Part shown: in pieces, positions 58,109 through 62,556 of the stretch
Layout of the letters: every line of letters begins with the position of its first letter
Numbering within the stretch: position 1 is the stretch's first letter
Assembly (NCBI GenBank): GCA_017535925.1
Contig: JAFXTD010000047.1
Span: 1 to 64,000 of the forward strand
Source: Selenomonadaceae bacterium
GTDB lineage: Bacteria > Bacillota > Negativicutes > Selenomonadales > Selenomonadaceae
DNA: 64,000 bases
Reading direction: 5' to 3'
The notes under the pieces: generated by a model
The model's input: only the letters and a program-made list of their open reading frames with translations
Told to the model about the DNA's origin: nothing
The model's database searches: none
Program-made: the position numbers and the translations under genes

Positions 58109-58549
58109 ATGGACAGACTTACTCCCGCTCAACGGCGCAAGAACATGCAACACGTTCGCAACAAAGATTCGCAGATTGAATTAAAATTGCGGCGGGCACT
58201 GTGGCAGGCGGGCTTCCGCTATCGAAAAAATGTTCGCAAAGTTTTCGGCTGCCCCGACGTGGTTTTTCTGCGCTTGAAGATTGCCGTTTTCTGCGATTCG
58301 GAATTTTGGCACGGCTACGATTGGGAAAATCGCAAGCACGATTTCAAAAGCCGGCAAGAATTTTGGATACCGAAGATTGAACGCAACATGGCTCGTGACC
58401 GCGAAGTCAACGAACACTTGGCGGCGGAAGGCTGGACGGTTTTGCGTTTCTTCGGCAAGGAAATAAAAAATAACGTCGAGGGTTGCGTTCGGATTATCGC
58501 GGAGACCATCGCTCAAAAAAAATCGGAGGCGGGCAAGTGTACAAGATGA
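58109..58549 (+). CDS. vsr: Very short patch repair endonuclease (Vsr)
   Basis: A 146-residue nicking enzyme that repairs T:G mismatches arising when 5-methylcytosine deaminates. MDRLTPAQRRKNMQHVRNKDSQIELKLRRALW is the Vsr N-terminus; the catalytic core is FGCPDVVFLRLKIAVFCDSEFWHGYDW, which retains the acidic residues of the fold, followed by RNMARDREV. AAGGAG precedes the ATG. It overlaps the cytosine methyltransferase gene by 13 bases, matching its job of repairing that enzyme's by-products. Confidence 0.93.
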   Translation: MDRLTPAQRRKNMQHVRNKDSQIELKLRRALWQAGFRYRKNVRKVFGCPDVVFLRLKIAVFCDSEFWHGYDWENRKHDFKSRQEFWIPKIERNMARDREVNEHLAAEGWTVLRFFGKEIKNNVEGCVRIIAETIAQKKSEAGKCTR

Positions 58550-60645
58550 TTGATTTGTTCGCGGGCATCGGCGGAATTCGGCTCGGCTTTGAACGCGCCT
58601 TTGAGAACGAGGCTGAAACAGTTTTCGTCAGCGAAATTGACAAGTACGCCCGCACGACCTATGCCGAAAATTTTTCCGACGCTTTGAAGATTGAAGGAGA
58701 CATTACAAAAATTCCCGCCGAAAAAATTCCGCCGTTCGATATTTGCCTCGCGGGTTTTCCCTGTCAAGCCTTTTCAATCGCCGGGCACCGCGCAGGCTTC
58801 GACGACGATTATCACGGGACTTGTCGAGGCACGCTCTTTCTTGACGTTGTGAGGATTTGCGATTGGCACAAGCCGAAAATTATTTTTTGCGAAAACGTCA
58901 AAGGGCTCGTCAATCACGACAAGGGGCGCACGTTCAAAATTATTTGCGACGCCTTTGAGCAAATCGGCTACAAAATTTTTCACAAGGTCTTGAACAGCAG
59001 AGACTTCGGGCTTGCGCAAAATCGTGAACGGATTTACATCGTCTGCTTCCGAAATGACATCGCGCCCGAAAATTTTTCTTTCCCCGCGCCGCGTGAGGAA
59101 AGTTATTCGATTCGCGACATCCTCGAATACGCGCCGATTGCCTCGAAATATTATTTGAGTGACGTTTATCTTGAGACGCTTCGCAAGCACAGAAGACGAC
59201 ACGAGGCGGCGGGCAACGGCTTCGGCTACGAGGTCAAAGACTTGGACGGCGTGGCAAATGCTTTGGTCTGCGGCGGCATGGGTCGCGAAAGAAATTTAAT
59301 CGTCGACGAACGCGCTCACTCAACAATCCCGACGACAAAAATCAAAGGCGCGATTAACTTGGAAAATATCCGCAAGCTCACGCCTCGCGAATGGGCAAGA
59401 CTTCAAGGCTTCCCCGACGACTTCCGATTGATTCTGCCCGACACTCAACTTTACAAACAATTCGGCAACACCGTTTCGATTAACGTCGTCGAGGCGATTG
59501 CGCAAGAGATAAGGAGCATGCTTGAACCTATGGCATACAACAAAGGCGAATGGAGCGAACTTTACGCGTTGCTGAAAATTCTTGCCGAAGGAAAGATTGA
59601 CGCGGAGAATCATGCCTTGCCGGTCTTGAAAGTCTTCCGCGAAGATATTTCCGGTTTCAAGTTGGAATTTCGGAGAGAAAAAAATTTCGTCGAACGCTGT
59701 CAAAACGGCGACCGCATTTGGAGAAAATCGGCGACCGAACTTGCAACGATGGCGGAAAAAATTTTGCACGGGATACAATGCGGCAGAGGTCTTTCATTTG
59801 AAATTGACGGCGCGAAAGAAATTATGACGGCAATCGGTTTGACGAAAATAAAATCGCCCGCAACCAAGAAAGCTGATATTTTGCTTGAGATTTACGACGC
59901 GTTGACCGGCTCGAATTTTGTTCGCGGCTATTCGATTAAATCCGACTTGGGCAGCCCGCCGACTTTGTTTAATGCCTCGCAGTCTACGAATTTTCGCTTT
60001 AAAGTCTTTGGTGTCGACGACGCGCTTGCCGAAAAAATTAACTCAATCGAAACGCGCACGAAGATTCACGACCGCCTTGAAAAAATTCCGCGCCTCGAAT
60101 TTGATTCGGTCTGCAAAGAAACTTTCGCCGACAACTTGAGCTTGGTGGATTCGAACATGGAAAAAATTTTGGGTGAGGCTGTCAAGCTTTACTACGTCGA
60201 ACGAATCAGCGATTGCGCGGAGTTGGCTACGGAACTTGAAAAGCGCAACCCTCTGAATGCCCGCGCCGAAAATTATTATCGCCACAAGATAAAAAAATTT
60301 CTCTGTGCGGTTGCGTTGGGCTTGCGACCCGCCGAAGAATGGAACGGTCTCGACGAGGCGAACGGCGGCTATCTTATCGTCAAGAGCAACGGCGAACTTT
60401 CCGTGTTCAATCTTCACAACCGCGACGACTTCGAAACTTATCTGCTCAACAACACGCGCCTCGAAACAGCAAGCTCAAAAAGATTCAATTTCGCAAAAAT
60501 TTCGGGGGGGGGGGGATTTTTACATCGACCTCAACTTACAAATTCGTTTCAAGTAAAAAAATATCGCCTCGACCAAAAAATTTTCGGCGGGCGATTTTTT
60601 TTTGACTTCAATCAATCGAGGAGCTTGAGGATTTTTTCAAGTTGA
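58537..60645 (+). CDS. Fused C5-cytosine methyltransferase and HpaII-type restriction endonuclease (frameshifted end)
   Basis: Residues 1-330 are a complete Dcm-type methylase: DLFAGIGGIRLGFE, catalytic GFPCQAFS, FCENVKGL, QNRERIYIV and QFGNTVSIN. Without a stop the chain continues at MAYNKGEWSELYALLKILAEGKI into a HpaII-family endonuclease (about 335-665), so M and R form one polypeptide; an internal ATG (59530) with AAGGAG 13 bases before could also start R alone. The GTG start at 58537 fits GGAGG; ATG 58546 is possible. At 60504-60515 lies a run of 12 G. In the present frame the end reads a foreign tail to 60645, past a terminator and into the convergent gene; with 11 G it would end DFYIDLNLQIRFK at 60556, a HpaII-like end. 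Target probably CCGG (inference). Confidence 0.85.
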   Translation: MYKMIDLFAGIGGIRLGFERAFENEAETVFVSEIDKYARTTYAENFSDALKIEGDITKIPAEKIPPFDICLAGFPCQAFSIAGHRAGFDDDYHGTCRGTLFLDVVRICDWHKPKIIFCENVKGLVNHDKGRTFKIICDAFEQIGYKIFHKVLNSRDFGLAQNRERIYIVCFRNDIAPENFSFPAPREESYSIRDILEYAPIASKYYLSDVYLETLRKHRRRHEAAGNGFGYEVKDLDGVANALVCGGMGRERNLIVDERAHSTIPTTKIKGAINLENIRKLTPREWARLQGFPDDFRLILPDTQLYKQFGNTVSINVVEAIAQEIRSMLEPMAYNKGEWSELYALLKILAEGKIDAENHALPVLKVFREDISGFKLEFRREKNFVERCQNGDRIWRKSATELATMAEKILHGIQCGRGLSFEIDGAKEIMTAIGLTKIKSPATKKADILLEIYDALTGSNFVRGYSIKSDLGSPPTLFNASQSTNFRFKVFGVDDALAEKINSIETRTKIHDRLEKIPRLEFDSVCKETFADNLSLVDSNMEKILGEAVKLYYVERISDCAELATELEKRNPLNARAENYYRHKIKKFLCAVALGLRPAEEWNGLDEANGGYLIVKSNGELSVFNLHNRDDFETYLLNNTRLETASSKRFNFAKISGGGGFLHRPQLTNSFQVKKYRLDQKIFGGRFFFDFNQSRSLRIFSS
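60504..60515. repeat. Homopolymeric tract of 12 G
   Basis: Twelve consecutive G at 60504-60515, the only such run in the window. The first G ends a Ser codon. Loss of one G restores the HpaII-like C-terminus, so slippage would switch the protein end. Confidence 0.95.
60563..60602. terminator. Terminator after the restriction-modification gene
   Basis: ATCGCC / GGCGAT stem with an A/T-rich loop, A-run before and seven Ts after. It lies only six bases beyond the TAA at 60556, supporting that TAA as the original stop. Confidence 0.7.
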
Positions 60646-61565
60646 GGCTCGGAATTTTTCAGCCCCGTGAAAATTAATATCTCGGGAATTTTCCAACCGT
60701 GCTTGCCTTGCAGAAGATTAACGCCCCACTCGTCACGGAAAATCACAAATTCATTTACGCTGTCCCATTCGCCGTCGAATTCGTCAAACGTCGGTATCTT
60801 TTCGGCTTGATAAAAAAATTTTTTGCCGTCGTCGTAAGCCTTAATTTTTTGAATGGTGTGACTGTCCGCGTACAAAGTCTTGACCTCTTCGCCGAGAAGA
60901 AAATCCAAGTCGCAGAAAACTCTGTCGTGAAAATACCACACGCAATCTTCAATGCCCCTGTCGTCGTTTTCGTTGCGCCTGATTTTGTAAAACCGCTCAA
61001 AAGATAAACGAATCGCCTTATCGTTCGGCAAATTCCAACAAAAAGTTTTGCGCGTCGGAACCCAATCGAAATAAACGACTTCGGGGGCGGCGAGGCGAGT
61101 GAGCCAAAAGTTTTCGTTGTCAGAAAGTTTTATTTCGGGATGCTTGAGCTCGGCGCGAATTTCCATCAAAATTTTTCCGAGCATGTTTTGACCTTCGCCC
61201 GTTTCAGAATCGACGCCCCAAAAAGTATCGTGCCAATTATTGCCTTCGATTAATTTGTTGTCACCGGTTGCAAGCAGGCGTTTGGCAAGTTCGGGGTTCT
61301 GAAAAAATTTCGCGAAGACAACATCCCGCATGACCTCAACTTTGACTTCTTCCCAATCGTCGCGAAGTTCGACCTTGCGCCCCATGCGTTTTGCTTTGCC
61401 CGCATTGTATTTCGTGAACTCGAAAACTTCATCGTCGTCCGTCGACTTTTGCGCCTGATAAGCTGCCTCCGCATTGCCGAAAGACAAGTAGCCGTACTTC
61501 ACGGGGACATTATAAAAGTTGCTTAGAAACTCGTATTCGCCGTCAAAGCTCGTAATGTCACTCAT
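60612..61565 (-). CDS. NADAR-domain protein with an extra C-terminal domain
   Basis: A 317-residue protein. Residues about 1-150 are a NADAR (YbiA-like) domain: SFDGEYEFLSNFY, NAEAAYQAQKS, DDWEEVKVEVM, LLATGDNKLIEGN, WG and GQNMLGKILMEIR. NADAR proteins act on N-glycosidic or ADP-ribosyl bonds. Residues about 155-317, starting SDNENFWLTRL, form an unrecognised domain rich in aromatic and acidic residues. The start ATG at 61563-61565 has GGAGGTG six bases upstream and overlaps the radical SAM stop by eight bases. It lies convergent to the restriction-modification gene. Confidence 0.82.
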   Translation of the reverse strand: MSDITSFDGEYEFLSNFYNVPVKYGYLSFGNAEAAYQAQKSTDDDEVFEFTKYNAGKAKRMGRKVELRDDWEEVKVEVMRDVVFAKFFQNPELAKRLLATGDNKLIEGNNWHDTFWGVDSETGEGQNMLGKILMEIRAELKHPEIKLSDNENFWLTRLAAPEVVYFDWVPTRKTFCWNLPNDKAIRLSFERFYKIRRNENDDRGIEDCVWYFHDRVFCDLDFLLGEEVKTLYADSHTIQKIKAYDDGKKFFYQAEKIPTFDEFDGEWDSVNEFVIFRDEWGVNLLQGKHGWKIPEILIFTGLKNSEPQLEKILKLLD

Positions 61566-62556
61566 AAGGAACACCTCCATTGAAATTGCACCAAGGTTCG
61601 CCGCTCATGAAGTCGCCGTCGTTGTAGCAAGCCGCCCGCGCACGACAGCCGCCGCATTTGTTTTTGTATTTGCAGCCGCCGCAATTCCCGCTGTAGTCAA
61701 GCGTCCGAAGCCGTTGCAAAATTTTATTCGACTTCCAAATTTCATCGAAGGGCGTTTCGCGAACGTCGCCAAGTTCCATGTTCAGATAGGCGCACGGTTG
61801 AACTTTGCCTCGCGGACTGATTATGCAATAGCTCAAGCCCGCCAAGCACCCGCGTTTAAATCGCAACTTCATGCCCAGTTGGTCGGCTATCCTCAAAAAT
61901 TGCGGCGCACATGTCGGCTTGAGTTCGATTGAAACTTCTTGTTGCTTGAGCATGATTCGCGTCAAAACTTTTTCGTAACCTTCGGCGCGCAGAGATTCTT
62001 CTTCAATCGTCTTGGCTCGTCCCGTCGGCACAAGGAAGAAAAAGTGATGCGCCTTTGCTCCGATTTCGACCGCGAAGTCGGTCAACGCCTCCAGCTCGTG
62101 TTGATTCCAATCCATTACCGTCGTGTGAATTTGGAAGGGCAAGCCCGCCGCCAAACAATTTTTCATGCCGTCGACTGCGCCCTGCCATGCTCCCGCGAAC
62201 GAACGAAATTTATCGTGCTTTTGTGCGTCAAGTGAGTCGAGTGATATGCCCATGCCTTTTGCGCCCGCCGCTTTCAAGTCACGTGCCATTTGCGAAGTTA
62301 TCAAGGTTCCGTTCGTGCCGAAGACCGCAATTAATTTCAAGCGCGTTGCGTGTTCGACAAGCTCCAAAATGTCGGGGCGCATCAGAGGTTCGCCGCCGGA
62401 AAAAATCATTATCTTGAAACCTGCGCGGGCAATCTGATTCAAAAGTTCTTTGGCTTCGGCAGTCGAGAGTTCTTCTGCAGCTTTGCAGCCGGCGTCGCGG
62501 TAGCAGTGAGCACAATACATATTACAAGCATTCGTCGTGTTCCATGAAACTATCAA
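61558..62556 (-). CDS. Radical SAM/SPASM protein, NirJ/AhbD-like
   Basis: A 332-residue enzyme. N-terminal CNMYCAHC (CxxxCxxC, cluster for SAM cleavage), then FSGGEPLMRPD, TNGT and SLDS. The C-terminal SPASM-like region has CLAGLSYCIISPRGKVQPC and CGGCKYKNKCGGCRARAAC...PWC, the pattern of the heme-pathway proteins NirJ, AhbC and AhbD. Start is TTG 62556 with GGGAGG. A heme-related job would fit the cytochrome genes nearby, but here the gene is coupled to the NADAR gene rather than heme genes, so the substrate is open. Confidence 0.8.
   Translation of the reverse strand: MIVSWNTTNACNMYCAHCYRDAGCKAAEELSTAEAKELLNQIARAGFKIMIFSGGEPLMRPDILELVEHATRLKLIAVFGTNGTLITSQMARDLKAAGAKGMGISLDSLDAQKHDKFRSFAGAWQGAVDGMKNCLAAGLPFQIHTTVMDWNQHELEALTDFAVEIGAKAHHFFFLVPTGRAKTIEEESLRAEGYEKVLTRIMLKQQEVSIELKPTCAPQFLRIADQLGMKLRFKRGCLAGLSYCIISPRGKVQPCAYLNMELGDVRETPFDEIWKSNKILQRLRTLDYSGNCGGCKYKNKCGGCRARAACYNDGDFMSGEPWCNFNGGVPYE

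Follow-up and report, generated by a model that had tools for sequence, protein, structure and literature searches.

Switching a whole restriction–modification (R–M) system off and on is risky, as the cell's own genome is cut if the nuclease comes back while methylation is still incomplete. Phase variation of restriction only and phase variation of protein C-termini have both been published. Helicobacter pylori HsdR HP0464 (C9) and MboIIR HP1366 (G9) are listed as phase-variable restriction genes (PMC4209511), and in Mycoplasma agalactiae hsdR is broken at a poly(A) tract, for which ON/OFF restriction with methylation still possible has been suggested (PMC9465063). In one-polypeptide R–M enzymes, a homopolymer alters the recognition sequence of the type IIG enzyme JHP1272 / HP1353-1354 (PMC3936762), and repeat-driven switching of the type IIG enzyme Cj0031 of Campylobacter jejuni alters methylation as well as restriction, ON cells restricting phage to a relative plating of 0.001–0.2 (PMC4889913). 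C-terminal phase variation has been proposed for eight single genes of Helicobacter canadensis, where 3′-end poly-G tracts, with 8–17 G read ranges in at least some of them, alter the C-terminus only (PMC2823697).

The gene analysed here, a natural fusion of a C5-cytosine methylase to a HpaII-type endonuclease, shares something with each of these systems. As in H. pylori, its homopolymer is restricted to the part that cuts, which could leave modification on; unlike the separate H. pylori genes, and unlike the M. agalactiae hsdR, a separate type I subunit, the fusion is a single polypeptide, and the run falls within the last few percent of it. It resembles JHP1272 / HP1353-1354, where a homopolymer in a one-polypeptide enzyme changes one property, and Cj0031, where such an enzyme is switched by a repeat; however, its run should remove cutting, whereas the former changes recognition and the latter changes both activities. 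The 3′-end poly-G that alters only the C-terminus recalls H. canadensis, but here the lost piece is a conserved nuclease end, belongs to a two-activity protein and is kept across species, and the text of PMC2823697 uses neither the word restriction nor the word endonuclease. No report of a fused methylase–nuclease with a run at its nuclease end was found among titles and abstracts of the open-licence literature; on that basis, what appears to be new is a conserved nuclease-end switch in a natural fusion. Judged from sequence, the fused gene is probably a C-terminal phase-variation switch of its nuclease part that leaves the methylase on.

The window, the whole 64,000-nt stretch of DNA that was analysed, carries the fused ORF, as assembled, at 58537..60645 (+), with GTG at 58537 or ATG at 58546 as start candidates. 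Pfam places a C5-cytosine methyltransferase domain at residues 2–325 (58540..59511, +; PF00145, DNA_methylase, 311.6 bits, cut-off 22) and a HpaII-family endonuclease domain at residues 335–656 (59539..60504, +; PF09561, RE_HpaII, 294.7 bits, cut-off 25). The methylase domain also matches TIGR00675 (322.2 bits against a cut-off of 100.65) and HhaI methylase chains at about 1e-63, and contains GFPCQAFS, which we take to carry the PCQ motif of C5-methyltransferases. By domain content the ORF is a bifunctional, one-polypeptide R–M enzyme with both activities predicted, and we infer that its specificity is CCGG. The Eco29kI methylase is likewise of the C5 kind. When joined by engineering, the Eco29kI nuclease and methylase form a functional fusion (PMC3039593). 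A structure-chain sequence search found no solved structure homologous to the nuclease by sequence; for the HpaII endonuclease family the nearest solved folds are HinP1I and MspI. The start of the fusion is overlapped by a Vsr mismatch endonuclease gene (58109..58549, +; TIGR00632, 145 bits, cut-off 97.85; Pfam Vsr, 6.2e-26), and a Vsr gene lies upstream of the fusion in 13/13 fused loci of the genus in a GTDB scan that kept the best 80 of 272 relatives.

The PF09561 match in the assembled frame covers profile positions 1–343 of 359, and the end of the family profile is therefore absent from that frame, while still encoded at the locus in another one. The profile match ends at a 12-G homopolymer (60504..60515, +), the putative switch, which starts at residue 656 of the 702 assembled. 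The window contains five overlapping 8-G matches against 0.37 expected, a count reached in 0/100 shuffles, and its longest other G run is 6. The earlier note had placed the run about 40 bases before a HpaII-like stop, and the measured distance is 38 bases: with 11 G, or by threes with 8 or 14, the protein ends in DFYIDLNLQIRFK followed by TAA at 60554-60556 (tail and stop, 60515..60556, +), as that note had proposed. Its account of the 12-G frame proved equally accurate, since the unrelated OFF tail (60516..60645, +) crosses a terminator-like hairpin with a T-run (60561..60603, +), which lies past the ON stop and before the OFF one, and ends at 60645 inside the convergent gene at 60612-61580.

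The genus was taken as Quinella (Selenomonadaceae), and the nuclease was matched in 19 of the 66 genus genomes searched, 14 of which encode methylase and nuclease in one ORF and five of which have an unfused form. These homologues include one from a record named Quinella sp. 1Q7 and others from Selenomonadaceae MAGs, mostly from ruminant guts. A G run occupies the equivalent place in each of the 13 fused copies that have a readable 3′ end, and its length, in MAGs representing one genome per species whose homopolymer counts may be off by one, is 7 in G007, 9 in G018 and G004, 10 in G062, G023 and G061, 11 in G011, G052, G056 and G038, 12 in the window and 13 in G063 and G021. The tail is in frame (ON) in five of the 13 (G052, G023, G061, G018 and G021), about the one third expected from free drift of phase, and out of frame (OFF) in eight, among which the two wrong phases are represented three and five times. 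Consistent with this assignment, the PF09561 match reaches position 359 in exactly the five ON genomes and ends at 342–347 in the nine other fused ones, which include G014, whose copy is cut by a contig end. The five unfused genus copies, three of them partial, carry no run (0/5) and read straight into LN(L/I)Q(I/V)RF tails.

The comparison with relatives thus bears out the phase-variable layout that the earlier note had seen at the endonuclease end: tract length varies, between 7 and 13 G in 13 genomes, and the homologues have the HpaII tail in common and not the one ending at 60645. The run is late and only the C-terminus is altered, which is C-terminal phase variation as defined. A homopolymer beyond chance, with lengths in all phases among relatives, is in addition what characterizes a contingency gene, and in these sequence traits the fusion resembles one. 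It is very probable that the G run toggles the nuclease tail. Slippage within populations is presumed.

Runs of this kind invite the objection that the G tracts were misread or misassembled and that the gene is really always ON, all the more as the copies come from MAG assemblies and the G014 assembly breaks at the run. Against this, a long run is present in 13/13 copies, contrary to codon usage, and an off-by-one error could flip single ON/OFF calls but could not erase the run or its 7–13 range, so we regard such an artefact as highly improbable. In G014, contig C55 stops just before the expected run and contig C102 begins 2 bases before a matching tail, and we take the two to be sides of one assembly break. 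A long G run also occurs within ~20 bases of a contig start in G006:C75, G014:C30, G014:C31, G016:C31, G017:C153 and G019:C36, as if assemblies broke at runs of mixed length.

Among the HpaII loci examined more widely, the run is confined to this group. The GTDB scan retained the best 80 of 272 relatives, and the other 192 may include run-bearing fusions; within the 80, a run of at least 7 G near the gene end was found in 12/13 fused genus loci, the thirteenth being the G014 record, and in 0/67 other HpaII loci. Four of the latter are themselves methylase–HpaII fusions (L083, L084, L095 and L099, from Clostridiaceae, an unnamed bacterium, Defluviitaleaceae and Oscillospiraceae). A tree built from 45 nuclease sequences places all 14 fused members of the genus in a single group (support 100/100), adjoining two unfused sequences that also come from this genus; the four run-less fusions stand apart from them, are not all together and require three label changes. 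This single group suggests that the run arose with or after one fusion event and was then kept.

The tail that the run controls is a conserved part of the nuclease. Its Gln and Arg are invariant in 52/52 homologues of an alignment drawn from the 80, from which OFF copies, G014, some near-duplicates and longer or broken ends were left out, and its strands sit within a predicted nuclease model with a mean pLDDT of 94.1. In the eight OFF genomes, pairwise single-base codon differences in the 27-nt tail, read in its own frame, number 80 synonymous and 0 nonsynonymous, compared with 21/85 and 5/101 (synonymous/nonsynonymous) in the shifted frames. The out-of-frame tail of OFF genomes still evolves as protein. 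This bears directly on whether the gene is a pseudogene in decay whose end is gone, as the 8/13 assemblies out of frame might suggest; not only are the tail changes exclusively synonymous, but the 14 fused genus copies have no stop upstream of the run and the methylase frame is intact in 14/14, and the nuclease of the window copy differs from that of its closest relative, both OFF, with pN 0.092 and pS 0.279 (ratio ~0.33). Decay is accordingly hardly credible.

The run itself is also actively kept. GGG makes up 6.8% of Gly codons in 32 window genes, and of the 27 Gly columns conserved in the 14 fused sequences none is all-GGG, the maximum being 7/14. Mean synonymous differences between the fused genes amount to 0.42–0.62 per site, the single closest pair aside. 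A pure G run that persists in one position despite the scarcity of GGG and this divergence is not passively retained.

Long homopolymers are a possible cause of transcriptional slippage. Slippage by RNA polymerase or by the ribosome would let DNA of a single run length yield both protein forms, ON and OFF, in a fixed mix and, if it supplied ON protein, would also explain why the tail is under selection in genomes that are OFF. Such a fixed device should, however, hold one phase, and the run occupies all three among relatives (5, 3 and 5 of 13), which makes this explanation very unlikely.

Under the favoured reading, DNA slippage at a switchable run, slipped-strand mispairing at the poly-G would change the frame of the last ~13 residues only. 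The right count, 11 in the window, would supply the last beta strands with the conserved N-x-Q-x-R and so the cutting form, and other counts would append an unrelated tail, leaving a dead nuclease joined to an intact methylase. In view of the invariant residues and the structural model, the OFF form is in all likelihood nuclease-dead. Methylation would probably persist in that form, to judge from the domain order, the run lying downstream of the whole methylase domain, and from separate HpaII-linked methylases of the same kind. The latter, at unfused or run-less loci between L060 and L095, are 62–72% identical to the window methylase, with L075 (37%) as the exception. With the methylase intact in the OFF form, the cell's own DNA would stay protected and restriction could return without self-cutting. 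Confining the run to the nuclease end of a fusion would thereby combine permanent protection with bet-hedged restriction, and bet-hedged restriction would also bet-hedge openness to new DNA. The 13 species-level genomes that keep the run, most of them from ruminant guts, supply ON and OFF alleles made by nature, with which the limits on horizontal transfer could be studied in a rumen genus that is uncultured.

Transcript ends raise a different prospect, namely that the run switches the whole enzyme: an OFF mRNA without a stop codon would be subject to tmRNA rescue, the entire fusion would be degraded, and restriction and modification would switch together. A standard scan, which permits loops of 3–8 only, found no terminator at the window locus, and a custom script detected the hairpin and T-run after the ON stop; the segment 60550-60610 folds at -19.1 kcal/mol (z -3.8). 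The script predicted a terminator in 6/13 fused loci, where the ON stop precedes it and both OFF frames cross the hairpin. All 12 OFF frames of these six loci are stop-free up to the hairpin end, 5/8 assembled OFF copies are of the hairpin-crossing kind, and the host genome has a tmRNA gene. Because OFF frames pass the hairpin, OFF mRNA may lack a stop, in which case tmRNA could tag the protein and methylation would fall. Several observations nevertheless weigh against a whole-enzyme switch. The script found no terminator in 7/13 fused loci, and one of the two OFF frames meets a stop no more than 19 nt from the run in L034, L036, L042 and L046. Stop-free frames are no commoner than shuffles often give: shuffling the stretch after the ON stop, the only part the test spans (in L035 the T-run end fell short), yielded stop-free OFF frames at 0.55–1.0 per locus, so that there is no sign of selection either way, and selection for nonstop OFF frames was not seen in this test. 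Moreover, a run serving to switch the entire gene should lie near its beginning, and homopolymers are biased to the first fifth of genes, with a smaller excess in the last fifth (cited in PMC2823697). On balance we consider joint loss of both activities unlikely.

A three-state version, in which ON cells cut and protect, early-stop OFF cells only protect and hairpin-crossing OFF cells lose both activities, is decidedly less probable still; if true, one G run would produce restricting, immune-only and naive cells. Long OFF periods, for their part, have left no clear trace in the distances between copies. Nuclease/methylase distance ratios for run-bearing and other pairs were 3.55/2.58, 2.32/1.75, 2.34/2.16 and 2.06/2.27 in four bins matched by distance, with non-independent pairs throughout and a single pair in the first bin. 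This comparison set the 14 fused genus sequences, G014 included, against 31 of the 67 other loci picked as nearer, one picked row being dropped for coverage under 90%. Run-bearing copies had the higher ratio in three bins and the lower one in the fourth, giving no clear sign of relaxed nuclease selection across these bins.

The host genome (2.59 Mb), of which the window is contig 46, holds 19 G runs of 9–15, the fusion run included, and about half of the 18 others lie in glycan-type genes. That other runs occur in genes of surface-glycan type, a pattern familiar from established contingency loci, is a second argument against polymerase or ribosome slippage as the source of the two forms. G-run contingency genes seem to be common in this genome. 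Several of the runs lie in glycosyltransferase, FkbM/TylF-type methyltransferase, WavE and sulfatase genes; at L154 the halves of a glycosyltransferase domain stand in different frames either side of the run, like an OFF contingency gene, and the GT92 match at L160 breaks off at its run. Runs of at least 12 G occur in 34/66 genus genomes, and 12-G matches, with overlaps counted, number 65 in G016, 114 in G019 and 70 in G054. Other run-bearing restriction genes were sought in one frame from 10 of 30 12-G loci, with no restriction-family match. The paper on Quinella genomes (PMC9585023), searched by term, returned no mention of phase variation or phase-variable genes, homopolymers, poly-G or phage.

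The convergent gene into which the OFF frame runs (60612-61580, -) belongs to the NADAR family (TIGR02464, 81.1 bits against 73.7). It matches the NCBIfam anti-phage NADAR model far below cut-off and is possibly a second defence gene beside the fusion. Site usage was counted in the window (1-64000) and in 12–40 kb from each of 21 other genus genomes. Median CCGG depletion was 0.41 with the fused system (n=10) and 0.45 without it (n=9; p 0.60), the three genomes with the unfused form being left out, and CCGG avoidance tied to the HpaII system was thus not seen among the genus genomes tested. CCGG is usually depleted whether the system is present or not, at 0.24–0.78 of expected, G019 standing at 1.11. 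Two other sites are strongly depleted in the window, GGCC at 0.07 and GATC at 0.08 of expected; across the set, GGCC is at or below 0.31 in 22/22 genomes and GATC at or below 0.49 in 21/22, with G019 at 0.90.
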